A stretch of 57,038 bases of DNA from Lachnospiraceae bacterium (lineage in GTDB: Bacteria; Bacillota; Clostridia; Lachnospirales; Lachnospiraceae), in the NCBI GenBank assembly GCA_014803415.1, contig JAAVBZ010000027.1, positions 16,910-73,947 of the forward strand. The letters are read 5' to 3'. The number at the start of each line of letters is the position of its first letter. The first letter of the stretch is position 1. The notes beneath the pieces are model-generated. The model was not told where the DNA came from. It saw nothing but the letters and a program-made list of their open reading frames with translations, and ran no database searches. The translations under genes were made by a program, and so were the position numbers. Below, one piece after another: positions 3,055 to 43,072 of the stretch.

Positions 3055-3058
3055 GTTT

Positions 3059-5248: not shown

Positions 5249-5260
5249 TATGACTGCCTC

Positions 5261-9148: not shown

Positions 9149-9168
9149 AGTTTTCTCCTTCCATTCCA

Positions 9169-9711
9169 TTAACACTGTTTTCTGACTTCTGCCAGAAGAT
9201 CTTTACCATTTACTTTGTATACGCTGTTAAGCTTATCTAACTCGATCATGACCTGCCCGCCCATTTCAACAAGGATATATGTTACTTCCAGCGTGATGGA
9301 GGCATTCATCAGATCGCCCATTTTCACCGTACCAAGATTTGCCGCAGTCGGATGACCACGGAATACGATACGCATTGCCTGGGTACTGAGCGTTCCGCCA
9401 GTCTGACGATTCCGCTGCTGGACTGAAGAACGCAGTACCAGCTTTGACTGTTCTCCGGTATTGAGCATGCTGAAAAAATCCCTATCTATCATTCGGAAAG
9501 GAATGTCCTGTGACATGCTTTGGAACATACCAATTACTGCAGTATTATATTCGCCCAGGATCCCTGACCCTGAGACTGTCGCCGTCATTGCCTGCAATTG
9601 GGCAAGACTGAATTCTCCTGTGGTGCCTACAATCCTGTTGGCCTCATTGTACACGTTGAAATTATTCATCACTTCCGGAAATATAATTCCGCTGTTATTA
9701 GTTTCAATCAT
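9169..9711 (-). CDS. Major tail tube protein (P2 FII-like)
   Basis: This 180-aa protein is of the P2 FII tube family: an EVMNNFNVY opening, a mixed beta region, and the tail of FRGHPTAANLGTVKMG followed by a LEVTYI strand. Tube subunits stack as hexamers inside the sheath. The gene starts after AGGAGG and overlaps the last base of the sheath gene, the standard sheath-tube order. Confidence 0.9.
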   Translation of the reverse strand: MIETNNSGIIFPEVMNNFNVYNEANRIVGTTGEFSLAQLQAMTATVSGSGILGEYNTAVIGMFQSMSQDIPFRMIDRDFFSMLNTGEQSKLVLRSSVQQRNRQTGGTLSTQAMRIVFRGHPTAANLGTVKMGDLMNASITLEVTYILVEMGGQVMIELDKLNSVYKVNGKDLLAEVRKQC

Positions 9712-11177
9712 TACGATGCACCTCCTGTTCCTGATAAGCTGTCTGCCAGCAGTTCCGGATCAAATTTCAGTACAAATACAATATCCTCTGCCGGTGTAAA
9801 AGCTGCCATGTAAATATGGAAAATCACCTGCCCTGTAAGGACATTTTCCACACTGTTCTCATCTTCGTTGTATTCAATTCTTCCGCCTGCCAGTTTTCCA
9901 TCTGACACATAACTGTTCAACCTGATATTCTCAGAATCACAGATAGATTCTATCAATCTATAATTTGCAGGGCTGTCTACCCTGTCATGATAAATCGTGA
10001 TCAGGTTGTTAGACATCCAGGTGAACATTCTGCGGCATGCGATCCAGCGGTCTTTTACGTCCTTTACTTCCGGATAAACAGAAGTATTATTTCCCCAGGA
10101 ACGCCAGCTGCCTTCACTGATCAGTGTAATAATACCGGCTGCATTTAAGGTATTGGCCTGCTCTCTGTCCATAAAGACTTCCGTTCCGTCTGCCAGAACT
10201 GCTTTATCGATATTGATCACCTTATTTGAAAGGTACAGACTCGGCACATTATCATTAGATGCATCTGTATACTGTGCCATTGCTCCAAATAATGCAGAAT
10301 AATACAGCTTTGTATCCCCTATCTGAGTCATCGGCCACATCACCAAAGCGTGTTTGTCCTGATAACCGCTTTCTTCTTTGATTTTAGGGACATCGGTATA
10401 CAGCCGGGTTTTTGTTGTATCCAGATCCAGCAGACATTCTGCTGAGAATACGCCGTTGATATATTCGCACTTGGATATCATCACCGCGCCCACTTCCGGA
10501 TCATGACTCCACCCGGGTGCAAGCAAAAGTGCCGGCGCCATTCCTGTACGCGGATAGACCTGCCTAAGGACTTCGAATCCGCTTTCTTTTCCCGTCATCA
10601 CATCATAGCCGCCAATGATATCCTCAGCTGTTACCTGTGACGGGTCAATACTTGTTGATTCTACCATCAGACTTTTTGCTTCTGCTGCCTGATCCGATAT
10701 CAATGTAATGACCAGATGCCCGCTGCTGTCGAAAGAAAGCAAATAATCGGTATCTTCTTCCAATGCTGTTTCTCCCAGCTTCACTACAATGCTGCTTTTC
10801 AAGATGCCAAGCACATCATCAATCACTGCCTGTCCTTTTATGACACTGTATTCCTTCGCTTCATTTTCTTTTTTATGTACAGCAGGATCCAGAACATTGA
10901 TGAATACTACCGGTGCAACCCCATAGGCAATAAAATTAGCATACATGGACTGACACAGCGTATATGCTTCAAAATCAGTGCTGTATCCCAGTCTCTTCTT
11001 GGCATCCTGCATATTGCTGCAAAGTACTGGTACGTTGACCGATGCCTCCGGATCATCTGTCAGATTTACCGGGGCGGTTCCGACTATCACCTGAAGTCCT
11101 GACGTCCCGTTGACAGGTGAGGCAATGCCTGTGCCCTCTTCCACAACACGCACGCCATGATAATATTTCTCACTCAT
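9711..11177 (-). CDS. Contractile tail sheath protein
   Basis: The 488-aa product matches phage tail sheath proteins. It has an N-terminal handshake region (YYHGVRVVEEGTG), a variable insertion from ~110 to 190, a core with ALLLAPGWSHDPEV near residue 220, and a conserved C-terminal domain ending in FHIYMAAFTPAEDI. Its presence proves a contractile tail. It overlaps the 90-aa gene upstream by 4 bases and has an AAAGGAG site. Confidence 0.94.
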   Translation of the reverse strand: MSEKYYHGVRVVEEGTGIASPVNGTSGLQVIVGTAPVNLTDDPEASVNVPVLCSNMQDAKKRLGYSTDFEAYTLCQSMYANFIAYGVAPVVFINVLDPAVHKKENEAKEYSVIKGQAVIDDVLGILKSSIVVKLGETALEEDTDYLLSFDSSGHLVITLISDQAAEAKSLMVESTSIDPSQVTAEDIIGGYDVMTGKESGFEVLRQVYPRTGMAPALLLAPGWSHDPEVGAVMISKCEYINGVFSAECLLDLDTTKTRLYTDVPKIKEESGYQDKHALVMWPMTQIGDTKLYYSALFGAMAQYTDASNDNVPSLYLSNKVINIDKAVLADGTEVFMDREQANTLNAAGIITLISEGSWRSWGNNTSVYPEVKDVKDRWIACRRMFTWMSNNLITIYHDRVDSPANYRLIESICDSENIRLNSYVSDGKLAGGRIEYNEDENSVENVLTGQVIFHIYMAAFTPAEDIVFVLKFDPELLADSLSGTGGAS

Positions 11178-11446
11178 ACTTTTGCTCCTTTCTCTCTGGC
11201 ATATTCAGCTGCCTTCTGATAGCAGATACTGGCTGCTGATTGAGGATCCTTTAATTCTTTTCGCAACTGTGCCACGCTTCCTGTCTTCGCCAGGAGTCTT
11301 CCCAATGCAGGCAGCTCCTTAACGGCTGCTTCCAGCTGAGGCGTTAATCCATTCCGGTATACCGTTCCGGGCATAGCCACGCCTGTTATGACAGGGCCCA
11401 GATATACCACAGTTTTTCTTTTTTCATCGTTCTTTTTGTTAGGCAT
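11174..11446 (-). CDS. Small protein upstream of sheath, function unknown
   Basis: A 90-aa basic protein that I do not recognise. The first half is beta-like (VVYLGPVITGVAMPGTVYRNG) and the second half helical. The slot directly before the sheath holds a small DUF2635-like protein in Mu-type phages, and this may be an analogue, but sequence evidence for that is weak. It overlaps the neighbouring genes on both sides and has a GGGAGG site, so it is a real gene. Confidence 0.75.
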   Translation of the reverse strand: MPNKKNDEKRKTVVYLGPVITGVAMPGTVYRNGLTPQLEAAVKELPALGRLLAKTGSVAQLRKELKDPQSAASICYQKAAEYAREKGAKV

Positions 11447-11963
11447 ATTTGTCCTCCCTTCCTACAAAAAAGGTATCCCATGTCATTTCCATTGCACCGA
11501 AATAATAAGGATACCTGTCTTCCGGATCTAAAATCCAATTAATGTTTGTGTTGCAGTTCAACCGGTATCTGTCTTTTAATACCGGATCCATCGTAAAACG
11601 CTCTGCAATTTTATGGAGCATATTTAAAATCACCTGATGTCCCAGACAGTTAACGTCATCATCAAAGATTCCAATAACTGCAACTACATTTACTGCCTGA
11701 GCGCCTTGTGTTGTTGCAATATTTCCTGAATCTGCCCTGATAATGCAATAAGGATATGGATCTTCTTCTCCTTCTTCACCGCCCATTATGTCAACTTCTT
11801 CTGTTTCTTCTGTAAACTCCTGTATTTTTTGCAGACGCTTGGGAAGATTTTGCGGATATGATTTTACTTTTGCAGGATTCCCTTTCACATCTTTCAGGAT
11901 CATATCTTTCAGGATCTGTTCTATTTCTTCTCCTAAATCTTTCTGTAACTGATAAACTGTCAT
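11439..11963 (-). CDS. Probable tail terminator / neck protein
   Basis: This 174-aa acidic protein resembles Mu gp37/DUF1834-type tail completion proteins in size, place and layout: an N-terminal helix, a variable acidic loop (EEGEEDPYPY), and strands near VNVVAVIGIFDDD. These proteins cap the growing tube and sheath and form the joint to the head. It has a TAGGAG site and overlaps its downstream neighbour by 8 bases. The call rests mainly on synteny. Confidence 0.55.
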   Translation of the reverse strand: MTVYQLQKDLGEEIEQILKDMILKDVKGNPAKVKSYPQNLPKRLQKIQEFTEETEEVDIMGGEEGEEDPYPYCIIRADSGNIATTQGAQAVNVVAVIGIFDDDVNCLGHQVILNMLHKIAERFTMDPVLKDRYRLNCNTNINWILDPEDRYPYYFGAMEMTWDTFFVGREDKYA

Positions 11964-11964
11964 T

Positions 11965-12591
11965 TTATGCTCCTATCACTGCATTTATATGCTTCAGCAG
12001 ATTGTAATTCAGGTCATATTCCGTGTCTGTTGATATTTCCTGAGTATATGTTACACCGGCAGCATGGGCGGATGATAAAGTCATGATTTCCTTTATCTTT
12101 TCCTTTTGTGGATTATGTTTCATTCTCGCACCTGGAACGCGTTGAAAAATACCTTCATGCTCACTAATCTCCCCATCCTTTGACTCATTCTTCATAGTAG
12201 CCATAAAAGCTTTATATGATTTACCATTAGCTATAATCTCCAGTTCCTTCATCGCATTTGATTTCAGCACTTGTGATTTAGCTCCTTTTCTTTTGCCATT
12301 TTTCTGGGCTTTATATTTATCAACTCCTAAAGAAGGGCCTACCACTTTAAGTGTAGCTTCAAGATGATTTTTAGTTGCGCTTTTCTTCTTGATATCTGAT
12401 TTTTTGAAATTTGATGCTTTAATCGTGTACCTTGCTCTTGTTTCGCTATGCAAACGATTTTTAGTGTCATCTGCAACTTCATTGATTGCTTTTCTCATTG
12501 CATCTTTCATGAAATCGCCATTTCCAAAGTCGTCCAATCGCTTCTGTAATGCAAGAAATGTTGCCTGTGTAGGTGTAACTGTTATCCTCAT
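11965..12591 (-). CDS. Minor tail / neck protein, gpZ- or gp10-like
   Basis: A 208-aa basic protein with a long N-terminal helical part (KAINEVADDTKNRLH) followed by RYTIKASNFKKSDI. This is the pattern of prophage minor tail protein Z and the related HK97 gp10-like head-tail joining proteins. Its ATG overlaps the upstream stop. It probably helps join head to tail; the exact role is inferred from family and gene order. Confidence 0.65.
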   Translation of the reverse strand: MRITVTPTQATFLALQKRLDDFGNGDFMKDAMRKAINEVADDTKNRLHSETRARYTIKASNFKKSDIKKKSATKNHLEATLKVVGPSLGVDKYKAQKNGKRKGAKSQVLKSNAMKELEIIANGKSYKAFMATMKNESKDGEISEHEGIFQRVPGARMKHNPQKEKIKEIMTLSSAHAAGVTYTQEISTDTEYDLNYNLLKHINAVIGA

Positions 12592-12929
12592 GATCTTGTT
12601 GCCTCCAAGCTGATGGAATAAATACCATCTTCGTCCACTGCATCTGTGATCAGATATTCCTGTTTGTCAAAATGAAAGGTTCTTCCAGGTGATGGAAGCG
12701 GGCCGAAATCTTTAGCATGCACATAAAAGAGGAGCTGTTTTTTGAACAACCCCCCATTAAATCCATTTAGTGCACCAGCATTTTTAAATTTCTTTTCCCG
12801 TTCCGTCATCTCATTATCATCAACGATTACCAGCGTATCCCTTCCATTCAGCTTATGGATAGTCCCAAATTCATCAAAATTCAGGAATGTTCTCTTAATG
12901 TCCTGTGCTATCACATCTTTGAATGTCAT
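12588..12929 (-). CDS. Probable head-tail connector protein
   Basis: A 113-aa protein in the head-tail joining block. The sequence is beta-rich in its second half (LLFYVHAKDFGPLPSPGRTF then YLITDAVDEDGIYSISL), like lambda FII or Mu gp36-type stoppers and adaptors. Coding overlaps both neighbours by 4 bases. I cannot assign the precise family. Confidence 0.55.
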   Translation of the reverse strand: MTFKDVIAQDIKRTFLNFDEFGTIHKLNGRDTLVIVDDNEMTEREKKFKNAGALNGFNGGLFKKQLLFYVHAKDFGPLPSPGRTFHFDKQEYLITDAVDEDGIYSISLEATRS

Positions 12930-13264
12930 TTTTTCTTCTTTCCTTCTGCTACAGGGGCTTTGGCAGGTTCTTCCGTTGTTCCGTCTTCAGATGTCTTGGC
13001 AGGGTCTTCCGTTGTTCCGTCTTCAGATGTCTTGGCAGGATCTTCTGTTGTTCCGTCTCCAGATGCTTTGGCAGGATCTTCTGCTTTATCAGGAAGAATT
13101 TCCTTTTTATCCTTAGATAAATCCTCTTCTTTTTTCAAGACCTTAACGCTTTCGGCACGTTTCCATGCTTCTACCATTTCAGCATTATCTGCAGGAATCT
13201 CTTCCCCAGGAATATAACGCTTCCCCTTGTATTGAATACTGACTACCGCAATTAATTTTTCCAT
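12926..13264 (-). CDS. Head-associated protein with Pro/Thr/Glu tandem repeats
   Basis: The 112-aa product has a compact N-terminal region (VVSIQYKGKRYIPGEEIPAD, residues ~5-30) followed by a low-complexity tail with a 12-residue repeat built around TTEDPAKTSED, ending in KKKK. The start at 13264 is chosen for its GAGGTGG site; an ATG four codons earlier is possible. The repeat is encoded by near-identical 36-bp units, so its length can vary by slippage. The N-terminus resembles small capsid-accessory or DUF7210-like proteins, but function is not known. Confidence 0.65.
   Translation of the reverse strand: MEKLIAVVSIQYKGKRYIPGEEIPADNAEMVEAWKRAESVKVLKKEEDLSKDKKEILPDKAEDPAKASGDGTTEDPAKTSEDGTTEDPAKTSEDGTTEEPAKAPVAEGKKKK
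12960..13079. repeat. 36-bp tandem repeat, about 3.3 copies
   Basis: Units begin at 12960, 12996, 13032 and 13068 with TTGGCAGG. The first three are nearly identical, the fourth is partial. They encode the acidic Thr/Pro repeat of the overlying gene in frame, so copy number changes would add or remove 12 residues without a frameshift. Confidence 0.9.
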
Positions 13265-13272
13265 AGGCCACC

Positions 13273-13596
13273 TCACGCATTGATCTTTACATATACTTTG
13301 GTATCACTTTCTGAAGAATCAGCTGCTGCATATCCCGCTTTTGTGCTGCCTTCAGATGCCGTAATTCCTTCTTCTGTCAGATATACCTCTGTACCGATGG
13401 AAATCTCTGTAGTATCAGTCTTATCAAAACCGAATACGCCGGAAACATGTACTACCCCATTTTCACCAGGCAAGATATCATCTCCTGCTACACCTATCCG
13501 GTTCCCCAAAACCACTACTTCTCCATTTTCGATCTTCTTATCGGTATTGTTCCGATAATCAAGTGCTTCACCTTTCTGCCAATATGTTCCTTTCAT
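13273..13596 (-). CDS. Capsid-associated DUF2190-type protein
   Basis: A 107-aa beta-rich protein of the DUF2190 type: GEALDYRNNTDKKIENGEVV, then GENGVVHVSGVFGF and an STKAGYAA strand. Proteins of this family follow major capsid genes and are likely head decoration or accessory proteins. It lies 10 bases after the capsid gene in transcription order and has an AGGTAG-type site. Confidence 0.75.
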   Translation of the reverse strand: MKGTYWQKGEALDYRNNTDKKIENGEVVVLGNRIGVAGDDILPGENGVVHVSGVFGFDKTDTTEISIGTEVYLTEEGITASEGSTKAGYAAADSSESDTKVYVKINA

Positions 13597-13606
13597 AATC
13601 TACCTC

Positions 13607-15172
13607 CTATGCCAGTTCAATCGGATTTTCCACAACAATACCGGGATTTTTAATTGCACCTCTGTAGTCCATAACAGTGATATCCCAATCCAGATAAATA
13701 TCCCATACAAATCCCAATGTTCCGGGAATTTCAGACCGTCTGATATTAGGCACTTCCTGACCGTTAAGGTAATCAATTTCCATAAAATCAGTATCTTCCT
13801 TGTTGCCAAGCAGCCACCAAGGCATCTGGTTCCCATAACCTCCGCAAAGGGCATTGATCGTAGGATCTTCCACGATCTCAATAGACTCCCTGTATTTATA
13901 CAAAGGATTTACTGCCTGAGTATTTCCCTCGGTATTGATTGTCGCGCTGTTGAATAAGGTATAGATATCAAATGCATACCCGCTGGGAACGATCATTACC
14001 GCTGGGCGGATGATACATACTTCTCCAAATTCGTCTGTCTGATTTGAAAGAGCCATGATCATTCCCTGTGTAGCCTCTCTTGTGATTCCGGTTCCTTTTG
14101 CCAGCAGATTCTTATGTGCTTTATCAAACAGTTTCGCGCCATCATAAATGACAGGGTTCTTAATCAACTTACTATATGCCTGCTTGTTCTGTGTTTTTCT
14201 TGCAGATGCTGCATATCGTGAAGGCAGCTTCGTTATCAGATCAATGTCGTCATTGATGAATGCCTGCCGTGTCAGAGTGAACTGACGTCCATAGGTTTCC
14301 AGTTTTCTGGTAGGACGTTTGTCATCTTTCCATGTATCATGCTTAAGTTCTCCGCCTTCTTCAACTTTTAAGAACTCTCCAGCTGGACCTGCCAGATAAT
14401 AATTATCATGAATCTTGAAATCTTTTAAAGTGCCCTTCTTGACCCATTTATCAAATGTTACCGGTACAGTTTTGTGCCCTTCCATGTATGCTTTGTTGAT
14501 CGCATTATCCAGTATTGCGGGGAATGCTGCCGTAGGATTAAAGAACTGCCTCTGCACCATCATAAATATCTCATCAGCACTTTTACGATTCAGGCCTGTT
14601 TGCCCCTCAGCTGCTAATGATTCAATGGCCAGATCCCGCAGGGTCATTCCCATCATATCCCTGGCGCCCGCTGCCGGTCTTTCCACCTTTAACCCGCTGC
14701 GCAGTAACATGGCATCACTTGCCGCATTTCTGAATTTGTCCTGTTCATCTGTTTCCACACTTACACGGCTGTTAAGCGGTGCGCCATTCTGACGCATATG
14801 TTCGATTACCGCGCTTCTGACGCTTTCAACTGAATTTCCGCCACTGATAAACTTCTGAAGATCTTTCTCCATTCCAAACTCTCTGCAAAGTGCTGTAATC
14901 TCAGAGATTCTCGAACGCTCCTGCTGTATTATTTCTGCGGAACGTTCTTCCGTCTGTTGCGACGTCGCAACCGCCTGTTCACTGGTTACCTCCTGCTGCT
15001 CTGCCTGGCGTTCTTCCTCTTCAATCTCTGCCGCCAACTGTTCAATTTCCCTCTGAAGCGCATCAAATTCTGACTGCTCCTCAGCATTCAGGTCGCGGTG
15101 TGCAGTTTTAGCATTGTTTAAAATTGACTGCTGACGCGCGATCTTCTGCTGCATTAACTTTTTTCTGTTCAT
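13607..15172 (-). CDS. Major capsid protein, HK97 fold, with N-terminal scaffold domain
   Basis: The 521-aa product joins an N-terminal coiled coil (residues ~1-75, Glu/Gln-rich, delta-domain type) to an HK97-fold shell domain from ~160 to the end, including FDKWVKKGTLKDF and PVIYDGAKLFDKAH. The delta domain normally scaffolds procapsid assembly and is removed by the neighbouring protease. Between them, near residues 67-73, the linker AVATSQQ is encoded by a perfect 16-bp palindrome that recurs elsewhere in the prophage. The start follows GGAGGG. Confidence 0.9.
   Translation of the reverse strand: MNRKKLMQQKIARQQSILNNAKTAHRDLNAEEQSEFDALQREIEQLAAEIEEEERQAEQQEVTSEQAVATSQQTEERSAEIIQQERSRISEITALCREFGMEKDLQKFISGGNSVESVRSAVIEHMRQNGAPLNSRVSVETDEQDKFRNAASDAMLLRSGLKVERPAAGARDMMGMTLRDLAIESLAAEGQTGLNRKSADEIFMMVQRQFFNPTAAFPAILDNAINKAYMEGHKTVPVTFDKWVKKGTLKDFKIHDNYYLAGPAGEFLKVEEGGELKHDTWKDDKRPTRKLETYGRQFTLTRQAFINDDIDLITKLPSRYAASARKTQNKQAYSKLIKNPVIYDGAKLFDKAHKNLLAKGTGITREATQGMIMALSNQTDEFGEVCIIRPAVMIVPSGYAFDIYTLFNSATINTEGNTQAVNPLYKYRESIEIVEDPTINALCGGYGNQMPWWLLGNKEDTDFMEIDYLNGQEVPNIRRSEIPGTLGFVWDIYLDWDITVMDYRGAIKNPGIVVENPIELA
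14956..14971. repeat. 16-bp palindrome GTTGCGACGTCGCAAC, copy 1
   Basis: This is a perfect 16-bp palindrome inside the scaffold-to-shell linker of the capsid gene, read as VATSQ. Its central 14 bp recur at 23926-23939 and 32326-32339. Confidence 0.95.
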
Positions 15173-15185
15173 TCTACATTCCCTC

Positions 15186-15797
15186 CTAGAATAATATGTT
15201 TTTATTTACAATGAGCTGTCTTTCGCAATGTGCCAAAGTACGCCCAATACTTCCTGCTTCCTGCCTTCCTACACCCACTGTATGATCAGCAGGAATGCTG
15301 ACTATTGATATTTCAAATGCCGACCATTTCTTTGCAATTGAGGCAGGTCCTTTGAATCGCCCATCGGAAGATATTTTGTTTACTGCCACTTCTTCCCATA
15401 CATCTACTGCATATCCTACGGAAACGCCTTTTAATGTACCGCTTTTCACTTTCTGATAAATCTTTTCAGACTCTTCATCTTCATCAAATTCAATTTCAGC
15501 TTTGCCTCTGCCGTTTTCTACCCAGGCGCGGTTTATTTTACCCATTACCTTGTCCCGGTTATGGTTAAACAGTACACAGCCAATCTCGTTTAATCGTGTC
15601 AGATCTGCGCAGCCATCAGAATGATCAAGGATCTCAATACCAAACCATCTTTCATATGGCTGCTCGCTGGAAAATGAAAGGATAAACTTTCTTTCATTTC
15701 CTTCGCCTTCCATTCTACAGATTGCATTTACTGTCAGCTCCCTGAATCCTCTATTCTTTTCCTGTGAGATCTTTTCCCTTGTAATAATCGCTTCCAA
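15186..15797 (-). CDS. HK97-family prohead protease
   Basis: The protein (203 aa from a TTG at 15797, 8 bases after AGGAGG) matches prohead proteases. It has an LFNHNRDKVMGKI segment carrying the likely catalytic His near residue 80, a GVSVGY turn and an EISIVSIPAD segment with the catalytic Ser near residue 185. A GTG three codons upstream overlaps the ribosome site and is unlikely. It overlaps the portal gene by 47 bases. The role is maturation of the procapsid by cleaving the capsid delta domain and itself. Confidence 0.85.
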   Translation of the reverse strand: MEAIITREKISQEKNRGFRELTVNAICRMEGEGNERKFILSFSSEQPYERWFGIEILDHSDGCADLTRLNEIGCVLFNHNRDKVMGKINRAWVENGRGKAEIEFDEDEESEKIYQKVKSGTLKGVSVGYAVDVWEEVAVNKISSDGRFKGPASIAKKWSAFEISIVSIPADHTVGVGRQEAGSIGRTLAHCERQLIVNKNILF

Positions 15798-17226
15798 ATA
15801 ACACACCTCCTATATCAAATCCATTCTCTTCTGCATATTCTAATGCTTCCACCATTTCGTCTATTTGTTCCCGCCAGTCGCGTCCATTTTCAGCAGCGAT
15901 CTGCTGGAATGTTTTTTGTCCAGTACTGAGAGCTATCTTATTCGCATTAGCCTCTTTGGCCGGATCAATCCATTTCTTGGGCGCTGCTGTCCATGTATGA
16001 CTTAAATATTTTTCTTTGTTATTCCAGAAATCCGGCACTTGGATTATTCCGGCCAGAACGCACGAAATAACAAATGTCTCATATATTTCATCCATCACCT
16101 CAATAAGGAGCTCCCGTTCATCATCATAGGTCAGGTCATCTTCAATCATTCCCTGTCTTGCTGAAGAATAGGTTGTTTCTGCCATATCCCGGCTTGTTGC
16201 CTCATAGGAAAGTCCCTGTCCCGCCCCAATCATATGCTGCATTAATTTAATGTAAGTTGCGGCATCAGTGCTCTGTCCGTTCGGATTGACAACTTCTATT
16301 TTGTCTCCCGGATCCAGTTCCCGAATCATTCCAGGCGCAATCGTTTTCCCTTCATATCTCCCTTTACTGTTTCCTGAATCAAATCTTCCGGGGCCACTTG
16401 AGGGATTTGTTTTTGTGATAAATACAGATAAACATGCTGCAATTCTTTCTTTCACAGAAACTGCCGTCATAAATTCATTTGCATCGCGGATTCTTGTGAC
16501 TGTCGGACTCAAATCAGACATTTCCCGAATTTGGGAAGGCCTTCTTTTGGTAAAATAAAAGATCACATCTTTGGATTCTATATAAATAGATTCCATTGGA
16601 AGTGATCCATCAATATCATATTGGCGGAACCAATAGCCTTCAGGACGGTTCCATCTGTTGTATTCAATACCTCCAACTACCCTGTTTTCTTTGTGCTTTG
16701 GCATCATCTGCGTATTGTCCAGTTCGTCAACTTCCATCGTCTGTATCTGAAAAGGTATAAATCCCTGGCCCGTATAGCGTTTGACTATTAAGATACCCCC
16801 ATCTACCTTTTTACGCTGTACACACATGCGCATGATTTGATTAAAACTCTGTGTCCCTGTCACATCACAATTCTGTTTTTTACACCAGTGCTTCCATGCC
16901 TGCATTAATGCTTCATCTGTTTTTTTATCTCCAGTTTTGGCCCTTATGGAAAATCCTCTTCCAAACACATTTCTTTTATATGCACTCACTACCGAATTGA
17001 GCATATCGGAATTTCTTTCCAGATCCCGGGTGCGGGCACGTACAGTATCTCTGCTGTATCGGTCCGTCAATTCTGCCGCCTGATTTGCCACATGCCAGTT
17101 TGCGCTTCCATTTCCATACCCGGCAGCGTCATAATTTCTTATGTCTTCCTCATATTTCCTCCAGATCTGCCGCCTGGCGCCCCATTCCGGTGAAACGAAA
17201 GAAATCAAATTATCTATCCAATTCAT
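15751..17226 (-). CDS. Portal protein, lambda gpB-type
   Basis: The 491-aa product matches the lambda-type portal family (Phage_portal_2): MNWIDNLISFVSPEWGARRQ at the start, RARTRDLERNSDMLNSVVSA near residues 60-80, and ETTYSSARQGMIEDD in the C-terminal half. The dodecameric ring it forms is the DNA entry channel and terminase docking site. It starts after GGGAGG and is followed by the overlapping protease. Confidence 0.92.
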   Translation of the reverse strand: MNWIDNLISFVSPEWGARRQIWRKYEEDIRNYDAAGYGNGSANWHVANQAAELTDRYSRDTVRARTRDLERNSDMLNSVVSAYKRNVFGRGFSIRAKTGDKKTDEALMQAWKHWCKKQNCDVTGTQSFNQIMRMCVQRKKVDGGILIVKRYTGQGFIPFQIQTMEVDELDNTQMMPKHKENRVVGGIEYNRWNRPEGYWFRQYDIDGSLPMESIYIESKDVIFYFTKRRPSQIREMSDLSPTVTRIRDANEFMTAVSVKERIAACLSVFITKTNPSSGPGRFDSGNSKGRYEGKTIAPGMIRELDPGDKIEVVNPNGQSTDAATYIKLMQHMIGAGQGLSYEATSRDMAETTYSSARQGMIEDDLTYDDERELLIEVMDEIYETFVISCVLAGIIQVPDFWNNKEKYLSHTWTAAPKKWIDPAKEANANKIALSTGQKTFQQIAAENGRDWREQIDEMVEALEYAEENGFDIGGVLFGSDYYKGKDLTGKE

Positions 17227-17228
17227 AA

Positions 17229-17441
17229 TTACCTCCCGTCAAATATCGCCAGATAAGTATTATCCATCAAATTACTGTTCTGGTTCGCCAGCTGCGCCTG
17301 AAGATCCTTCTGCATGTCAAGCAGTGTGTTCAGATCTGCTCTTGTGAGGCTCCTTGAACCGATCTTGTAGCTCTGCCCTCCAATCAAAATTCTACTAATA
17401 GCATCATTAACATCAATTAATTTTTTTTCAATATTCTCCAT
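17229..17441 (-). CDS. Small gpW-like head-tail connector
   Basis: A 70-aa protein directly upstream of the portal gene, the slot of lambda gpW. It has two helices (residues ~3-20 and 32-52) with a short YKIGSRSLTRADL turn, as in gpW-like connectors. The start at 17441 has GGAG 7 bases upstream; the ATG four codons earlier lies inside that site. It is the first gene after the HNH island in the late operon. Confidence 0.7.
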   Translation of the reverse strand: MENIEKKLIDVNDAISRILIGGQSYKIGSRSLTRADLNTLLDMQKDLQAQLANQNSNLMDNTYLAIFDGR

Positions 17442-17458
17442 AATTTTCTCCATAAAGA

Positions 17459-17481
17459 AGGAGCCACCTGCGGTGACTCCT
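17459..17481 (-). terminator. Hairpin between HNH island and late genes, weak terminator
   Basis: A 10-bp stem with a 3-nt loop (AGGAGTCACC, GCA, GGTGGCTCCT on the minus strand, one G-T pair) precedes the gpW-like gene. Only a short TTCTTTAT tract follows, so it may be a leaky terminator, a processing site or an RNA stabiliser. Confidence 0.4.
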
Positions 17482-17515
17482 CTACCTCAAATTTTATCTT
17501 GGCTTACACTACTCC

Positions 17516-18160
17516 TTACTTTTTCATTTTACATGCTAAAATCTCCTCTGGTTTCATTCCTTGTTTGAATCTATAGACAATCGTTTGGTAATTAACTCCT
17601 GTAATTGTTGACCATTCTGCTGCTGTCTTTGATTCACCATTCAATGTAATTAGAATGTTGCACTCCTTATTATTGGATTGCTCCTTTTTTGTCGCCCATC
17701 TACAGTTTCCCGGAGAATAATTACCATTATTATTAATTCTGTCAATTGTTAAATCTTCCTCATAACCACTCTGTAATGCCCATTTTTCAAAGGCTGAATA
17801 ATCCTCCTTCCAATCATCACAAACAGTAATTCCTCTAGCACCATACCTGCAATAATTTGATGCCTTACGATTATAGCATCGCTTCTTCATACCTTTCCAT
17901 ATTCCATACAGACGTGTTCTGCTTTTCATATGAGTGCATTTTGTAATTTTTCTTGAATGTTTATATTCTTCACCCAAACACCCACAGCTTTTTATTTTCT
18001 TATTTACGAGATTGGTTGATGCAACAATATGATGTTTCCCACAATCACAAACGCACTCCCATGTGGCTGATCCATCTGATGAGGTTCCCACGCGTTCAAG
18101 AGCAATGAGCTTTCCAAACCTCATATTGGTTAAGTCTCTAGGTTTTCCTGCCATCTGCAT
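17516..18160 (-). CDS. HNH/AP2-type homing endonuclease-like protein
   Basis: The protein (214 aa from 18160) begins with a Cys-rich finger (WECVCDCGK and KSCGCLG, residues ~33-62) and continues with the YGARGITVCDDWK and LTIDRINNNGNYSPGNCRWA motifs seen in phage HNH/AP2-type nicking or homing nucleases. A C-terminal helix-turn-helix follows (TAAEWSTITGVNYQTI). The start at 18160 has AGAGG upstream; the open frame runs 34 codons further without a ribosome site. It is a free-standing gene between the terminase and the gpW-like gene, not spliced into either reading frame. Confidence 0.75.
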   Translation of the reverse strand: MQMAGKPRDLTNMRFGKLIALERVGTSSDGSATWECVCDCGKHHIVASTNLVNKKIKSCGCLGEEYKHSRKITKCTHMKSRTRLYGIWKGMKKRCYNRKASNYCRYGARGITVCDDWKEDYSAFEKWALQSGYEEDLTIDRINNNGNYSPGNCRWATKKEQSNNKECNILITLNGESKTAAEWSTITGVNYQTIVYRFKQGMKPEEILACKMKK

Positions 18161-18268
18161 ATATCCTCTTATTATAAAAATGATTTCCAGTGAAGCTGAT
18201 AATACCCACTGCGCAAATCTCCCCCAATTCAGGAGAATTAAAATCTGAATGTTATTCAACACCGTCTT

Positions 18269-18427
18269 TCATCCGCAAAATCCAACTAATAAATAATAGA
18301 TTTCTCTTGCCCTGTTTTTGTTTCTCAAAACAAGATCATATATCCATTCGACATATTTTTCATCTTCATTCGATAGTTGTGAAAAGTCTGGTGCATCATT
18401 AAATGGTATAACAATGGCTTCTCTCAT
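18269..18427 (-). CDS. 52-aa protein of unknown function
   Basis: This short gene starts with ATG 7 bases after AAAGGAG. The product begins MREAIVIPFNDAPDF and has a helical second half (EDEKYVEWIYDLVLRNKN). I do not recognise it. It lies between the RHH gene and the HNH gene, downstream of two hairpins, and seems to share the island promoter at 18759-18787. Confidence 0.65.
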   Translation of the reverse strand: MREAIVIPFNDAPDFSQLSNEDEKYVEWIYDLVLRNKNRAREIYYLLVGFCG

Positions 18428-18460
18428 AACTGAACTCCTTTCTAAATAAAATTATTACTT

Positions 18461-18550
18461 GAAAGAAGTTTCTCCCCATGGTAGAATATTTCACGGAGAG
18501 AAATCTTCTTTAAGGGCAATCGGTTTACTTGTTAGGTGGGCGATTGTCCT
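18461..18550 (-). other. Two consecutive hairpins in the island leader
   Basis: On the minus strand the end of the RHH gene folds into a 10-bp stem (AGGACAATCG with CGATTGCCCT, 18-nt loop, one G-T pair). A second imperfect stem of about 13 bp lies at 18461-18511, with a loop around the sequence ATTCTACCATGG. Both sit between the RHH gene and the 52-aa gene. No T-run follows, so these are not ordinary terminators; they could be a regulatory or mobile-element RNA. Confidence 0.5.
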
Positions 18551-18728
18551 ATTCTTTTTTGCTGATTTCTTCATCAATCTTTTCATTGAGCCATGTTGTT
18601 TTTGTCTTATCCTGCTCTTTTAGTTTTTTATCTAGTGCCTCTAACTTTTCTCTCGAAACAGAAACACTGAATTGCCCAATAGTCTTACGTCTTTCTTTGA
18701 AATAATCAGCCCTACTTTTATCAGGCAA
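18549..18728 (-). CDS. Small ribbon-helix-helix-type repressor
   Basis: This 59-aa gene starts at a TTG 6 bases after GAGGAGGTG. The product reads PDKSRADYFKERRKTIGQFS, then VSVSREKLEALDKKL and TTWLNEKIDEEI, the strand-helix-helix layout of Arc/CopG-type repressors; the QFSVSV strand would enter the DNA groove. A 12-bp inverted repeat overlapping a consensus promoter begins 20 bases upstream, so autorepression is likely. The gene is too short for many gene finders. Confidence 0.7.
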   Translation of the reverse strand: MPDKSRADYFKERRKTIGQFSVSVSREKLEALDKKLKEQDKTKTTWLNEKIDEEISKKE

Positions 18729-18747
18729 ATAAATTCACCTCCTCTAT

Positions 18748-18787
18748 TTGCTAGCTACAGCATAGCATGTTGCTAGCAATATGTCAA
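18748..18787 (-). promoter_or_regulatory. Consensus promoter overlapped by inverted-repeat operator
   Basis: On the minus strand TTGACA (18782-18787), a 17-bp spacer and TATGCT (18759-18764) form a near-perfect sigma-A promoter. An inverted repeat with 12-bp arms (18748-18759 and 18768-18779, 11 of 12 matched, 8-bp centre) covers the -10 element and most of the spacer. It drives the RHH gene and is the obvious target for its product. Confidence 0.8.
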
Positions 18788-18847
18788 GGGCGATTTTCAA
18801 AAATAAATGCTCATATAAAGCCTATTTCTGTACCGTCATATCCCTGC

Positions 18848-20683
18848 TCATATCCAATTTTCATTTGCTTTTATCCAGCTCTCTTCCGGTGCATACTGCT
18901 CTTTACTTTCCTTTATTGGAGGTTTCACATCTTCCAGTAAATGAAAAGTCCTCACACCCAATGTATCAGCTGCTGCCATGGCGTATACTTCCGCGTCCAG
19001 ATAATGATTATCTGCATGGCTTGTCTTTTTCTGCCATACCTGTTGAGTTTTCTTCCCATTTTTAACATTGACTTTATGCTCTGATGTTACCTGCTCCGCA
19101 TAATCCTCATCGCACCCCTGATATACCATCCATGATCCCTGGCCATTTTCCTTATGCATTCTGCCTGCGATCATATCTTTGTACTTTCCACCATCAACAA
19201 TAACTAACGTGATTCCATATCCTTTTGAACCTGTCTTATTTACTGTTGACATATTATAATGTGTCTGCATCGGTCTGCTGGAGCCTTTTGCCGGAAGTGC
19301 CCAGTCTGAATTATTTGCGCAAAAGTCATATACATTATCTGTATCAAAACCCGAATCAATAAGAGCCAGGTTGACTATCATTTTTTCTCCTGACTCTTTT
19401 TGATACTCCATATTCATGATCTGTTCTACTTCGTTTAAACTGAATGCCTGTCCATGGGCAATATTCTGGCTTGTGATCCAATTCCCCCAGGCGCGGATTG
19501 TCCAATATACATATCCCATCTGCACATCTACGCCGCCGGTAAGTATCTTTGCCCACGATGGAACCACAAATTGCGGAACATTCGTCTGTCTGTCCATGAC
19601 AAGATCTTTTGAAGTTTTTAACTTAGTATCTTCCCAGGTCTCTGCCAGCCATGAATTCACAAAATTCTGCAATTTTTCCGGATCATCTTTACTGTCAAGA
19701 AATTCCAGTACTATTTCTTCCCATGTAAGGAACCTGCTATAAAGTGCATTCAGCCAGAATGAAACTTTCCTGGCTTTCCCTACTCCTTTTTTCCTGACTG
19801 TACGCCATTCACCCTTTCGCAGCATTGAAATCTTATCTTTATTTGAAATCAGGCAGCCGCATTCCTGACACACATAAATTGCCTGGCTTGCTTTCTCACT
19901 ATTCTCCAGCTCTTTATTATCCGGGAACTTGATCTGCTTAAACCTCAAAATGATATATTCTCCGCAATGCGGGCATGGAACAAAATAATTTTTCTGTTCA
20001 TCTGCATTTTCATGGATCTGCCATACATAATTAGTTTTTATTGTCGGCGTTGAGCATGTATATATTTTTTTGCTGTATATATATGTCCTGGTTCTTTCTT
20101 TTGCCAGATTATAAGGAGATGCTTCTTTTTTGGAAGCTCCCTCCATCTTATCTATCTCATCAAAAAATAAATATTTAATTGAAAAAGATGCCAATTTTGA
20201 AGGTGAATTGGATCCCCTTAACAAAATTGACATTCCCTGATATTTCAATTGCAGATCTTTTGAAGTTTTATCAAAATATTTCTCTTTAATTTCCGGTGTA
20301 CGGCTCAGTGATGGCTGGATCCTTTCCGTCGATATTTCTTTTGCCAGTTCATCAGTAGGATACACGATCATTACTGGTGATGGGTCAGACATAATGATCC
20401 AGCCAAGCATATTTAACATGGCTTCGGTCCCGCCCACCTGTGTTGATTTACAAAAATTAATTTCCTGTATGTATGGATCGGTAAATGCGTCCATGATTCC
20501 TACCAGATAAGGTGTTATGTCATTTGACCATTTCCCTTTAAAATGACTGTTTTCCCCTAAAACTCTGTATTTTTCTGCCCATTCACTTACAGTCAGCTTT
20601 TCCGGTTTCTTAAGTGTTCTCTTAATGACCGTCCGGAAAAGATTTCTTGTACGGAGTCTTGATCTTTGACGTTCTGAAGACAA
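18848..20683 (-). CDS. Terminase large subunit, GpA family
   Basis: The 611-aa product matches lambda gpA-type terminases. The ATPase domain shows a Walker A-like KSTQVGGTE at 79-87 and Walker B YLFFDEID at 171-178. A zinc-binding pair (CPHCGEY and CQECGC) lies near 238-275, and the nuclease domain begins around GGVDVQMGY near 390. The start is a TTG after GGGGTGG. It packages DNA with the small subunit located upstream; the family usually cuts at cos sites. Confidence 0.93.
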   Translation of the reverse strand: MSSERQRSRLRTRNLFRTVIKRTLKKPEKLTVSEWAEKYRVLGENSHFKGKWSNDITPYLVGIMDAFTDPYIQEINFCKSTQVGGTEAMLNMLGWIIMSDPSPVMIVYPTDELAKEISTERIQPSLSRTPEIKEKYFDKTSKDLQLKYQGMSILLRGSNSPSKLASFSIKYLFFDEIDKMEGASKKEASPYNLAKERTRTYIYSKKIYTCSTPTIKTNYVWQIHENADEQKNYFVPCPHCGEYIILRFKQIKFPDNKELENSEKASQAIYVCQECGCLISNKDKISMLRKGEWRTVRKKGVGKARKVSFWLNALYSRFLTWEEIVLEFLDSKDDPEKLQNFVNSWLAETWEDTKLKTSKDLVMDRQTNVPQFVVPSWAKILTGGVDVQMGYVYWTIRAWGNWITSQNIAHGQAFSLNEVEQIMNMEYQKESGEKMIVNLALIDSGFDTDNVYDFCANNSDWALPAKGSSRPMQTHYNMSTVNKTGSKGYGITLVIVDGGKYKDMIAGRMHKENGQGSWMVYQGCDEDYAEQVTSEHKVNVKNGKKTQQVWQKKTSHADNHYLDAEVYAMAAADTLGVRTFHLLEDVKPPIKESKEQYAPEESWIKANENWI

Positions 20684-23939: not shown

Positions 23940-24803
23940 CTAATTTGACAGTATTTCTTTCTCCAGCTGCTCGAAATCATAATCGTTCTGTGGAAACTGG
24001 TTAAATTGTGACGTGGCCTTTGGGGTTTTCGCCTTTTTCACCTTTTCCGGCGTATAATTTGCATCTAAATAGTCCACGTAACCGCTGTTGAAGAATGTAC
24101 TGCCATTCTGGTAATGCAGATAATCAATGCTGTCCACGTAGGCAATATATCTGTTTATAGCGCGTTCCATCTCATCATAGCCAATTTTTAAAAGGCGCAT
24201 CTTTGCAGCATCTGATACCTTCCCTTTTCCCTTCTTTACAGGATACAGTTTCCACAGTTCCTCAAACAGTGCAGAAGCGTCAGCTTTGCACATAGTATTT
24301 TTATTTCTTTTTTTACTCTTTTTTACTCTACTCTGCATATTTATGACGGAATCATTTGTATTTCTTCCGACATTAATTGAATTTACTGTCACATTTTCCG
24401 CTTTTTCGGGTATGGTAATTAAAAGGTACTCTTTTTTCAGTTCGACAACTTCACGCTTGGCTGTAGCTTTCAGGTATTGCTTCTGCACCCCGGAGGACGT
24501 AAGAATACCGTACTCTTTGTAAAGTTTATCTGAAAAAAGGTTCCTTCTGATGCATGCCGACACTATATCCCGTAGGAGTTGTAAGGAACCGCCATTCAAA
24601 CCATTCTCTGACGCAAATAGGAGTTCCTGATCTGGAGTCCATTCACAGTAATAACCACGCTCTCCATATATCTTCTGGAGGAGCTTGACGAATACCGCAA
24701 AGCCTTTCAGCCCATACTCGGCCTGCACCAATTTAACATTATCGTCCATGTGACAGTCCAACTCAAAGTAATCGAGATTTACTTTGTTTTGTCTGCCTGC
24801 CAT
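23940..24803 (-). CDS. Replication initiation protein, DUF4373/DnaD-like
   Basis: The 287-aa product has the Lin1244/Lin1753-type N-terminal winged-helix domain (VNLDYFELDCHMDDNVKLV, residues 8-26, then EYGLKGFAVFVKLLQKIYG) and a C-terminal DnaD/PF13730-like part near LWKLYPVKKGKGKVSD. Such proteins start phage replication and usually help load the helicase. No helicase loader gene was recognised next to it. It starts after TAGGAGG. Confidence 0.8.
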   Translation of the reverse strand: MAGRQNKVNLDYFELDCHMDDNVKLVQAEYGLKGFAVFVKLLQKIYGERGYYCEWTPDQELLFASENGLNGGSLQLLRDIVSACIRRNLFSDKLYKEYGILTSSGVQKQYLKATAKREVVELKKEYLLITIPEKAENVTVNSINVGRNTNDSVINMQSRVKKSKKRNKNTMCKADASALFEELWKLYPVKKGKGKVSDAAKMRLLKIGYDEMERAINRYIAYVDSIDYLHYQNGSTFFNSGYVDYLDANYTPEKVKKAKTPKATSQFNQFPQNDYDFEQLEKEILSN

Positions 24804-34639: not shown

Positions 34640-34807
34640 TCAGCCTCCTTTATCTTCCTGTGCCTGCTGCCGCAAAAGTTCATTAACCATAATCCGTGAG
34701 ACATTATCAATGATCTGGTCAACTTCCTTTTGGGTCTTAACTATGCAATCATCATGCACTACAATATGGCACCCGCTGGAAGATATATAATCTTTTATGA
34801 TGGCCAT
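34640..34807 (-). CDS. 55-aa early protein, unknown
   Basis: A short gene with AGAGGTGATG upstream of its ATG at 34807. It encodes MAIIKDYISSSGCHIVVHDD, then a helix (KEVDQIIDNVSRIMVNELL) and a GG ending. I do not recognise it. It is the second gene of the leftward early operon. Confidence 0.6.
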   Translation of the reverse strand: MAIIKDYISSSGCHIVVHDDCIVKTQKEVDQIIDNVSRIMVNELLRQQAQEDKGG

Positions 34808-35024
34808 AGCATCACCTCTTTAAATCTTATGTATTACCGGTTGTACACCTTTCCGGTTCTAGCATTACTTGTAAATTATTTATTTTCTCCCTATAATCTA
34901 TGTACAAGCCCATTGCCAGCCGATAAGCAAAGGCAAGCTATAGAGTTTATACAAATGAATGCATGGGATCATGCCTACGTGCCCAATTCCAAAGGCTGTT
35001 TCGAATGCACATGGGAAGAAAACA

Positions 35025-40230: not shown

Positions 40231-40274
40231 GCATCATTTTTGCATCAGAATTGCATCATTTTTGCATCATTTTA
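40231..40274. repeat. Four tandem 11-bp repeats upstream of hicAB
   Basis: Units GCATCATTTTT, GCATCAGAATT, GCATCATTTTT and GCATCATTTTA follow each other without gaps. An 11-bp period sets each unit on nearly the same helix face, as in operators that bind a multimeric regulator. Confidence 0.92.
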
Positions 40275-40358: not shown

Positions 40359-40547
40359 ATGCCAATAACACCAAAAGAGATGGAAAAGACAATCCTTGCA
40401 GACGGATGGGTATTTAAAAGTCAAGTAGGTTCACATAAGCATTACATACATCCGACAAAGCCTGGGAAAGTTACAATACCTTTTCACAGTAAGGATCTTC
40501 CCAAAGGTACAGAAAATTCCATCAAAAAACAGGCGGGGCTTAAATAG
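40359..40547 (+). CDS. hicA: HicA-type mRNA interferase toxin
   Basis: The 62-aa product is a HicA toxin: double-stranded RNA-binding fold with the active His in QVGSHKHYIHP near residues 26-31, then KPGKVTIPFHSKDLPKGT. HicA cleaves mRNA and is neutralised by HicB, encoded 42 bases downstream. It starts after AAGGAGG. On a prophage it may stabilise the element or limit other phages. Confidence 0.92.
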   Translation: MPITPKEMEKTILADGWVFKSQVGSHKHYIHPTKPGKVTIPFHSKDLPKGTENSIKKQAGLK

Positions 40548-40589
40548 CCCCTCTGTCTGTATATTCATAAAATCAGGAGGTAAATTTAT

Positions 40590-41012
40590 ATGTTATCAAT
40601 GTATCCAGCTTGCTTTTTCAAAGAAGAAAATGGTTATTCAGTTATTTTTCCAGATCTAAACTGGCTTTCTACATGCGGTAATACTTTGGAAAAATCAATG
40701 GAAATGGCCATTGATTGTCTGGCCGGTTATCTCTACACCTGCCAGATGGACGGAGAGCCTGTTCCGGATCCTTCGCAGTTAAGTGATATAAATCCGGTGA
40801 GTATCGCAAAAGAACTAGATATTGAGTCAGGAGATTCTTTTGTTAATATGGTATCCGTAGATGTTGCATTATATGCCAAAGCACACTTTGAAAAGTCTGT
40901 TAAAAAAACACTTACTATTCCTGCGTGGCTTAATGCTGCTGCCCTTGAGCAGAATATTAATTTTTCCCAGGTATTACAGGACGCATTAAAAGCCAAGCTC
41001 CACATAGGATAA
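40590..41012 (+). CDS. hicB: HicB-type antitoxin
   Basis: The 140-aa product has the HicB RNase-H-like N-terminal domain (YPACFFKEENGYSVIFPDLN, then DCLAGYLYTCQMDGEPVP) and a C-terminal ribbon-helix-helix domain (TLTIPAWLNAAALEQNINFS and QVLQDALKAKL). It binds HicA and represses the operon, probably at the sites upstream. It follows hicA with an AGGAGG site. Confidence 0.92.
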   Translation: MLSMYPACFFKEENGYSVIFPDLNWLSTCGNTLEKSMEMAIDCLAGYLYTCQMDGEPVPDPSQLSDINPVSIAKELDIESGDSFVNMVSVDVALYAKAHFEKSVKKTLTIPAWLNAAALEQNINFSQVLQDALKAKLHIG

Positions 41013-41034: not shown

Positions 41035-42615
41035 ATGATGGAAAAATACTGTGCATATCTGCGTAAGAGCCGCACTGATCGAGATGCAGAGCTTCGGGGA
41101 GAAGAAGAAACACTTGCACGTCACAAACGTATCTTAATTGAACTATCTGAAAAACTTCAAAAGCCTATCACTAAATTCTATTCGGAAGTAGTATCTGGTG
41201 ATACAATTTCTGACCGTCCTGTTATGCAAAATCTTCTTGCTGATGTAGAAACCGGTATGTGGGACGGTGTATTTGTTATTGAAGTAGAAAGGCTTGCCCG
41301 CGGAAACACAAGGGATCAGGGACTGGTAGCCGACGCCTTTAAATACTCCGATACCGTTATTATCACGCCTACCAAGACTTATGATCCTAACAATGAATTT
41401 GACGAAGAATACTTTGAATTCGGCCTGTTTATGTCCAGGCGCGAATACAAGACCATAACCCGCCGTCTGCAGCGTGGACGTATTGCATCTGTCAAAGAAG
41501 GTAATTATGTTGGCGGAGCTGCTCCCTACGGATACAAAAGGGTACGCCTTACCAAAGGATATTCTCTTGAAATTGTTCCTGAGCAGGCGGAAGTAGTAAA
41601 GCAGATCTTTAACTGGTATTGTTATGGTTTTCAGCAGCCTGATGGATCCATGCAGCGTCTTGGTACTGACTCTATTGCTGTCAAGCTGGATTCTTTGGGC
41701 ATTAAGCCTACAGTCAATGAAAGATGGTCAAGAGCCACTATAGGAGATATGCTAAAGAATATTACTTATACCGGAAGAGTCTTTTTTGGGCAATACAAAG
41801 AGATCAAGACTTCTGAAAATGGCAGAATCGTTAAGAAAAGGGTATATGATCCCAACCACTTAGTTGCTCCTGGCAAGCATCAGGCAATTATTAGTGATGA
41901 ATTGTTTTCCCTGACTGCTCAAATACGTAAAGAACGAAGAAAGAAAACAGTCCCTTCAACTGCTATACTTCAAAACCCATTATCCGGTATTGTTTATTGT
42001 CAGAAATGCGGTGCACTTATGACTCGGCTTGCCCCAAATAACAGAAACAAATATTCTACGCTTAAATGTCCCAACCGATATTGTGACAATATATCTTCCC
42101 CTCTTTATCTCGTGGAAGAAGAGCTGCTTAAATTCCTTGATGCCTGGGTAAAGTCTTACGAATTTGATCTGCGGAGGCATCTTAAAGAAAGACCGGTTGA
42201 AAATGAGATCCGAAACCGCAGAGATCTTCTTGCCAAAGTTGAGAAAGATATTACTATCACTAATAATCAGCTCCAAAAAACTTATTCCTTATTGGAGCAG
42301 GAGATATATACTCTCGATGTTTTTAAGGAAAGGCAACAGACATTGAAAACCGAACTGTCTTCACTGAATGCCAGTCGTGATATGATTCTTAAAGAAATTA
42401 AGGATTTAGAAACAGCTGATGAAGCACGTTCTTCTTTTCTGCCTAAATTAAAAAATCTTTTAGATACTTACTACAGCAGTACAATTGAAGCACAAAATCA
42501 GATGTTAACAGAAGTGATAACCAAAGTTACCTATGAAAAAAATGAACGTAATAAAAAAGGACAACTGGATAACGCAAATTTTACTATCCATGTCTATCCT
42601 AAAGTGCCTGAATAA
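41035..42615 (+). CDS. int: Large serine recombinase, prophage integrase
   Basis: The 526-aa product is a large serine integrase. The N-terminal resolvase domain has the catalytic Ser in YLRKSRTD (residue ~12) and the ERLARGNTRDQG region near 85. A recombinase domain follows (GGAAPYGYKRVRL), then a zinc ribbon (YCQKCGALM and CPNRYCDN near 322-350) and a long coiled coil near 385-475. It ends about 30 bases from the host junction, as is typical. An accessory directionality factor was not identified. Confidence 0.95.
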   Translation: MMEKYCAYLRKSRTDRDAELRGEEETLARHKRILIELSEKLQKPITKFYSEVVSGDTISDRPVMQNLLADVETGMWDGVFVIEVERLARGNTRDQGLVADAFKYSDTVIITPTKTYDPNNEFDEEYFEFGLFMSRREYKTITRRLQRGRIASVKEGNYVGGAAPYGYKRVRLTKGYSLEIVPEQAEVVKQIFNWYCYGFQQPDGSMQRLGTDSIAVKLDSLGIKPTVNERWSRATIGDMLKNITYTGRVFFGQYKEIKTSENGRIVKKRVYDPNHLVAPGKHQAIISDELFSLTAQIRKERRKKTVPSTAILQNPLSGIVYCQKCGALMTRLAPNNRNKYSTLKCPNRYCDNISSPLYLVEEELLKFLDAWVKSYEFDLRRHLKERPVENEIRNRRDLLAKVEKDITITNNQLQKTYSLLEQEIYTLDVFKERQQTLKTELSSLNASRDMILKEIKDLETADEARSSFLPKLKNLLDTYYSSTIEAQNQMLTEVITKVTYEKNERNKKGQLDNANFTIHVYPKVPE

Positions 42616-42640
42616 TTTTATTTATTACTTATGACTTAAA

Positions 42641-42660
42641 TATCCATATACGTACGGCCC
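42641..42660. other. Right attachment junction (attR), approximate
   Basis: The host GH18 reading frame is recognisable from about 42,647 (YTYGPAMAVAP) and shows a stop at 42632-42634 and no match before it. The crossover must therefore lie near CATATACGTACGGCC. The exact core cannot be set without the left junction. Confidence 0.7.
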
Positions 42661-43072
42661 CGCAATGGCTGTCGCCCCCATTAATAAAGTACGTGAAGTA
42701 GTGGAATATGCAGTTACCAGAATTACGCCTTCAAAAATAAGCTTAGGAATACCGAACTACGGATATGATTTTACCCTTCCTTATGAAAGAGGCGTTTCCA
42801 AAGCCCGGACCATCAGTAATCTGGAAGCTGTCCAGATTGCCATAGCCCGGGATGCCGTTATTTCTTTTGATGAAGTTGCCATGTCTCCCTTTTTTAATTA
42901 TGAAGAAAACGGTATCCAGCATGAGGTCTGGTTTGAGGATGTCAGAAGCCTGCAGGAGAAATATTCTCTTCTGCCAGAATATGGCCTAAGGGGTATCGGC
43001 GTCTGGCAGATCATGAAGCTGTTTCGTGCCGGGTGGCTGCTTTTTGAAGACAGATTTAATATTCTAAAGTAA
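42653..43072 (+). pseudogene. 3' fragment of a GH18 spore-cortex hydrolase (YaaH/SleL-like), cut by the prophage
   Basis: The frame reads YGPAMAVAPINKVREVVEYA and goes on with KISLGIPNYGYDFTLPYE, FDEVAMSPFFNYEENG and a WLLFEDRFNILK end. This is the C-terminal third of the GH18 domain of YaaH/SleL-type spore hydrolases. The catalytic DxxDxE part and any LysM domains are missing and should lie beyond the prophage's left end. The frame has no stop within the fragment, so excision would restore the gene. No ribosome site precedes the internal ATG at 42665. Confidence 0.9.

Follow-up and report, generated by a model that had tools for sequence, protein, structure and literature searches.

A prophage of 47.4 kb in a Lachnospiraceae bacterium interrupts a LysM-GH18 gene at the codons of its conserved WGYTYGPP motif, leaving two halves that flank the insert on one strand of one contig and rejoin in frame. 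The same split was found at 23 distinct loci (22 besides this one), distinct loci being defined by integrase identity under 95%. Our best reading is that the integrase belongs to a lineage centred on mother-cell genes, and that the element is a recurrent sporulation-gene intervening element of the skin/SPbeta kind.

The interrupted gene and its attachment sites

The window, by which we mean the whole stretch of 57,038 bp that was analysed, spans positions 16910-73947 of contig JAAVBZ010000027.1 (C27) in genome G000, an assembly of 48 contigs listed as 97.4% complete with 9% contamination. The original prediction was that a prophage splits a GH18 gene here and that the host frame resumes at about 42,647 and runs intact to its stop. 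This is borne out, the frame reopening in the attR core and staying open to 43072. A PF00704 search of G000 returned two gene halves on C27 and one distant paralogue on C17, and the 5' part, which was expected to the left in the same orientation, is present there. Comparison of the att cores shows the identical 10-bp TATACGTACG in both halves (C27:12112 and C27:59556), occurring once in each stretch searched (19.0 and 18.0 kb); the insert measures 47,444 bp. Joined at the core, the halves form a single open frame of 382 aa reading across ...MTYEWGYTYGPAMAVAPIN..., with no frameshift at the reconstructed attB; the element is bounded by att sites and interrupts a gene that is open on rejoining, as an intervening element does. 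The deduced attP is a dyad (19/25) centred on the AC of the core, and we propose this AC, at 42650-42651, as the crossover dinucleotide, a choice supported by G003, in which AC is shared by both ends of an element whose flanks differ.

Features of the split locus (positions in the window unless prefixed C27)
Feature	Position	Strand	Basis or remark
Phage structural and packaging genes	1200..20683	-	PHROG scan
Phage replication initiator	23943..24803	-	PHROG scan
Candidate recombination directionality factor (RDF), 55 aa, divergent from integrase, predicted beta-beta-alpha	34640..34807	-	iterative family search
Promoter-like box TACA-N10-CATAAGAT	34824..34845	-	upstream of candidate RDF; pattern chosen after looking
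HicA/HicB-like toxin-antitoxin pair	40359..41012	+	domain search; directly upstream of integrase
Large serine integrase, 526 aa, SprA(YokA)-like	41035..42615	+	Resolvase, Recombinase and Zn-ribbon domains; phrog_95
attR phage-side arm = attP dyad left arm	42628..42643	+	matching arm in attL, left of window
attR core TATACGTACG	42647..42656	+	common to attL (C27:12112, left of window)
3' part of host LysM-GH18 (YaaH/SleL-like) gene	42652..43072	+	profile search, junction joining, PDB comparison
5' part of host LysM-GH18 gene	C27:11389-12116 (4.8 kb left of window)	same contig, +	PF00704 search

The joined product carries LysM and GH18 domains and keeps the catalytic DxDxE motif. Its best PDB matches are YaaH (4s3k, E 2.8e-76) and a cortical-lytic enzyme (4s3j, E 4.3e-76); one LysM was detected in it, and both of these relatives align to two LysM stretches. 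Its likeness to YaaH/SleL, together with an upstream CATANNNTA, suggests that the split gene is a spore gene. No second intact copy, which would have counted against the original prediction, was found by the PF00704 search in the 48 contigs of G000; the C17 protein is only 23% identical and of a kind that occurs in most genomes of the genus.

On its three domains, and with SPbeta YokA (SprA; 9dxh, E 2.7e-43) as its nearest PDB relative, the integrase belongs with the SprA family. Its 3' end sits 31 bp before the attR core, and a short tandem repeat of 11/22 bp lies at window 40227-40273, before hicA. A PHROG scan covered 20 ORFs and the integrase, out of 71 ORFs listed for the insert, and its matches include endolysin, holin, baseplate wedge, tail protein, DNA methyltransferase and a transglycosylase-like protein, the remaining scanned ORFs having no PHROG match or matching families of unknown function. 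The structural and packaging block encodes baseplate, tail, tape measure, sheath, head protease, portal, HNH endonuclease and large terminase, and the lysis genes lie left of the window (locus L004). With packaging, head, tail, lysis, replication and integration all represented among its genes, the insert has the appearance of a complete temperate myophage. A match to phrog_1 marks another integrase-family ORF within the prophage, at window 26779-27588.

Recurrence of the split and integrity of the halves

Among 37 genomes of the genus, the GH18 gene is intact in 24 and split at the window codon in four (G000, G003, G005 and G032); it is broken elsewhere by contig ends in one (G021), seven have only weaker GH18 matches and one has none. 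The integrase (E <= 1e-60) was found in 4 of the 37, exactly the split genomes. Within the flank examined, at least one neighbour is the same at 20 of the 24 intact loci and both are the same at seven. In a wider family sample, 130 of 397 genomes match the GH18 gene at E <= 1e-25, and 11 of these have the gene broken at the window site; for G087, one of the 11, the break is seen only as a contig end, and no integrase was found. At all split loci but L075, G286 and G169, 26-107 bp separate the gene from the 3' end of the integrase, and two orientations occur. The gene is likewise split in G434, whose integrase is 47% identical to that of G306. Two contigs with split loci are binned as Gastranaerophilales and Alistipes, which we take for misbinning.

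Small elements in G306 (~12.8 kb), G090 (~10.7 kb) and L075 (~4.9 kb) interrupt the same gene, and each has a full-length integrase and a divergent ORF of 53-63 aa that belongs to the candidate RDF family. The cargo of G306 (L187:5402-15990) comprises two response regulators, two histidine kinases, two ABC ATPases and two ABC-2 permeases, that of G090 a radical-SAM protein and a Cas6-like protein (L188:11946-12842), and that of L075 two ORFs with no Pfam match. No structural, packaging or lysis PHROG matches were found in this cargo (11 ORFs in G306, 8 in G090, 2 in L075), the matches being to ABC transporters, regulators, a DNA methyltransferase, radical-SAM proteins, a kinase and unknown families. 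No insertion shared by relatives within the genus was found for G306 (6 genomes) or G090 (1 genome). The two-component systems and ABC transporters of G306 adjoin its integrase.

Wherever both halves are present they join in frame at the AC of a Thr codon, and all keep DxDxE (14 of 14); 12 of these read YTY at the junction, and G090 and G193 read YTF. Another 12 rows hold the 5' half alone (two being duplicates of other cases), and nine of them are open to the junction motif. In L070 and two G176 rows the 5' half is open and the junction reads WGYKY, so that the crossover differs there. With pS in the 5' part at about 0.7, and so saturated, protein divergence ratios were used in place of codon statistics. 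The 3'/5' ratio is 0.72-0.86 in 12 split genes versus 0.65-0.92 in 52 intact ones, and by this comparison the promoter-less 3' half looks free of decay. We treat this as supportive only. The integrase frame is full length at 22 of the 23 split loci and truncated in G286, where the halves are open despite the truncation; open halves alone are therefore no proof of restoration.

The integrase lineage, a candidate directionality factor and promoter boxes

Related integrases were collected in 113 rows, some of them duplicates. CotJC-like genes broken near residues 55-69 adjoin 55 of these, 22 stand beside a GH18 gene, 6 lie in asparagine synthetase and 30 are beside none of the three, a class that some rows owe to missing flank. 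In one of the 22 GH18-adjacent rows (L054) the GH18 gene is an intact neighbour, and L075 was classed with the 30 owing to the 2.7 kb between its integrase and the gene. Counted as distinct integrases (identity under 95%), the targets are CotJC-like in 49, GH18 in 22 (leaving out L054 and including L075 and G169) and asparagine synthetase in 6. The 67 IMG/VR loci divide into 14 with CotJC, one with GH18, one with asparagine synthetase, 19 with too little flank and 32 with none. In a quick tree, one branch of 26 rows (SH-aLRT 99) holds 21 of the 22 GH18-labelled rows, and the label requires five changes, as few as which were reached in none of 500 shuffles. The other five rows of the branch are G215 (two copies), G169 (two copies) and L069; in G215 the integrase stands beside another gene and the GH18 gene is intact, and the G169 rows are at a contig end, with the GH18 gene split. 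Both cotJC and yaaH are listed as spore coat genes (PMC3533761), and asnO is under SigE, SigK and SpoIIID (PMC517825); the asparagine synthetase target is probably of the AsnO kind. Each of the three genes targeted by the wider family would be either a mother-cell gene in B. subtilis or a gene of the spore coat.

We propose that the 55-aa protein encoded divergently from the integrase is its RDF, a function that we infer. The family was assembled by iterated search, which places the window member at 34643-34807 (-), and is present in 43 of the 67 IMG/VR integrase loci (some of them near-copies). Every hit has the opposite strand to the integrase. None of 54 intact-gene control loci has a member; these controls comprise less sequence in total (220 kb versus 528 kb). 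Dorea phage DO134P1 carries a member (E 1.7e-11). Of four members scanned, none matched a PHROG or passed the Pfam cut-off. The 31 PDB sequence matches of the candidate taken up to E 10 include no YokA-YotN chain, and a search of the SPbeta-like phage Goe12 gave nothing convincing (best E 1). The AlphaFold2 model is beta-beta-alpha (mean pLDDT 88.7, pTM 0.48), and Foldseek against the PDB returned 25 matches up to E 10, of which none reached E 0.001; these sequence and fold searches matched the candidate to no known RDF.

Upstream of 37 of 52 intact genes (shuffles mean 2.55, max 11) stands CATANNNTA, which corresponds to the SigK -10 consensus and is similar to the SigE one. It was also found upstream of 9 of 20 split genes, the window gene included (shuffles mean 0.82, max 3); the other 11 lack it in the tested stretch, which in several fell inside the coding region. 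The split gene of the window is accordingly predicted to carry a mother-cell-type -10 box. For the candidate RDF, the pattern [GT]ACA-N8..14-CATAnnn[TA] was picked on a first set of elements and then tried on the IMG/VR loci. Elements of the GH18 clade have it ahead of the candidate RDF in 8 of 13 cases (shuffles 0.24, max 2), other elements in 14 of 51 (1.18, max 5) and IMG/VR loci in 8 of 37 (0.83, max 4), and it is missing from 5, 37 and 29 cases respectively. An earlier spacing pattern was found in 6 of 50, against a mean of 0.45 and a maximum of 4 in shuffles, and a SigE-type promoter score did no better on real sequence than on shuffles. The host genome encodes SpoIIID and two SigK- or SigE-like sigma factors, both under the curated SigK cut-off.

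Proposed excision, rival readings and known systems

We consider it probable that a myophage resides here in a mother-cell spore gene, and that its integrase, together with a small RDF, reverses the insertion in the terminal mother cell and so mends the gene. The temperate phage would integrate through its SprA-like serine integrase into the WGYTYGPP codons of the LysM-GH18 gene, and integrase and RDF together would reverse this precisely. Excision would take place in the terminal mother cell, with the spore retaining the prophage, and phage induction would also excise it. The target genes and promoter boxes suggest the tie to sporulation, as does published work on SPbeta and skin. Points against this reading are the G215 integrase beside another gene, the open halves of G286 with its truncated integrase, the split genes and elements that lack the boxes, and the failure of the searches to match the candidate to a known RDF. 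Possible footprints of excision are found in G169 (L193, L194 and L280), where contigs C9 and C32 (the 5' half) both stop at the crossover dinucleotide, whereas C74 has the end of the integrase again and continues into the GH18 3' half. These contigs would fit the coexistence of integrated and excised forms, or may instead reflect a second copy. In L069, whose integrase is 56-57% identical, the order is integrase, attP-like dyad (16/25), endolysin, an arrangement that appears to be that of a free phage.

Ordinary lysogeny, in which a conserved, vegetatively silent gene serves as attB, excision comes with phage induction alone and the host tolerates the broken spore gene or has a backup for it, strikes us as a possible but rather unlikely account. 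Small elements lacking recognised phage structural genes keep the integrase, the candidate RDF and open halves, and the family targets are all of the mother-cell or spore-coat kind, even though the insert resembles a complete phage, the free-phage-like L069 is related to it and serine integrases, according to one account, usually target conserved protein-coding codons (PMC10083194). Permanent loss of the gene was judged unlikely, and we give very little credence to a dead gene whose halves are remnants of a recent one-way insertion: the truncated integrase of G286 and the lack of any shared insertion found within the genus for G306 or G090 would suit it, but the joined frames are open in all 14 cases, all integrases except that one are full length, and the G169 contigs read as if two forms coexist.

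Beyond the window, we lean towards the view that a SprA-like integrase lineage with its own RDF family is specialised on mother-cell genes (sleL-like, cotJC-like and asparagine synthetase) across Clostridia, its phages and the related cargo-bearing non-phage elements alike acting as routine developmental switches. Switches of this sort have so far been described in few sporulation genes. In our data a single integrase lineage, in most cases accompanied by one kind of small protein, cuts spore genes at the same codons across dozens of lineages, and the phenomenon may therefore be common in gut Clostridia, which spores carry between hosts; if so, developmental switches would be routine in gut spore formers and not isolated curiosities. 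The comparative set bears on what makes mother-cell genes safe for attachment, on how the same sites came to be used by phages and non-phage elements, and on whether the host acquires control of spore wall hydrolysis or coat make-up.

The original prediction also likened the locus to the interrupted sigK and spsM genes, and the analogy holds, the same split recurring at the 23 distinct loci, some of them occupied by small non-phage-like elements. SPbeta excision, as described, needs a small RDF expressed in the mother cell and restores spsM (PMC4191935). In Bacillus subtilis SPbeta/spsM (SprA/SprB), as in the window, an active-type prophage with a SprA-like serine integrase is involved and precise excision rejoins, or in the window would rejoin, a spore gene, but phage type and target gene differ, and no relation between the candidate RDF and SprB is detectable by profile. 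The C. difficile skin element in sigK is described with integrase CD1231 and a 72-aa RDF, CD1234, under SigE and SpoIIID (PMC5025042); by description it resembles the window in having a serine integrase within a mother-cell gene, its target being a late sigma factor whereas ours is a wall hydrolase. Mother-cell sporulation genes are also hit by gin in gerE (Bacillus cereus), vfbin in spoVFB, vrin in spoVR and yin in yabG (PMC5595907, PMC4191935, PMC10747680), gin being non-phage like the small elements here. As reported in the text available, those elements occupy other genes in single or few strains, in contrast to one integrase lineage at the same codon in many lineages.

One review, in the part available, already states that almost all such elements lie in mother-cell genes, with small ones kept for gene reconstitution (PMC6957869), and the novelty of that idea is therefore limited. 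The accounts consulted, in their available portions, place elements in sigK, spsM, spoVFB, spoVR, gerE and yabG and beside a CotJC homologue at phi027, with none found in a yaaH/sleL-like gene; the original account of vfbin and vrin (Abe et al. 2013) was outside this scope. In C. difficile R20291 the gene deleted beside prophage phi027 is a CotJC homologue, as in the cotJC group here, and the available part of that report describes no developmental switch (PMC11222575). Within the cotJC group, the breaks in the CotJC-like gene in L047-L143 and other integrase loci fall at about one codon.
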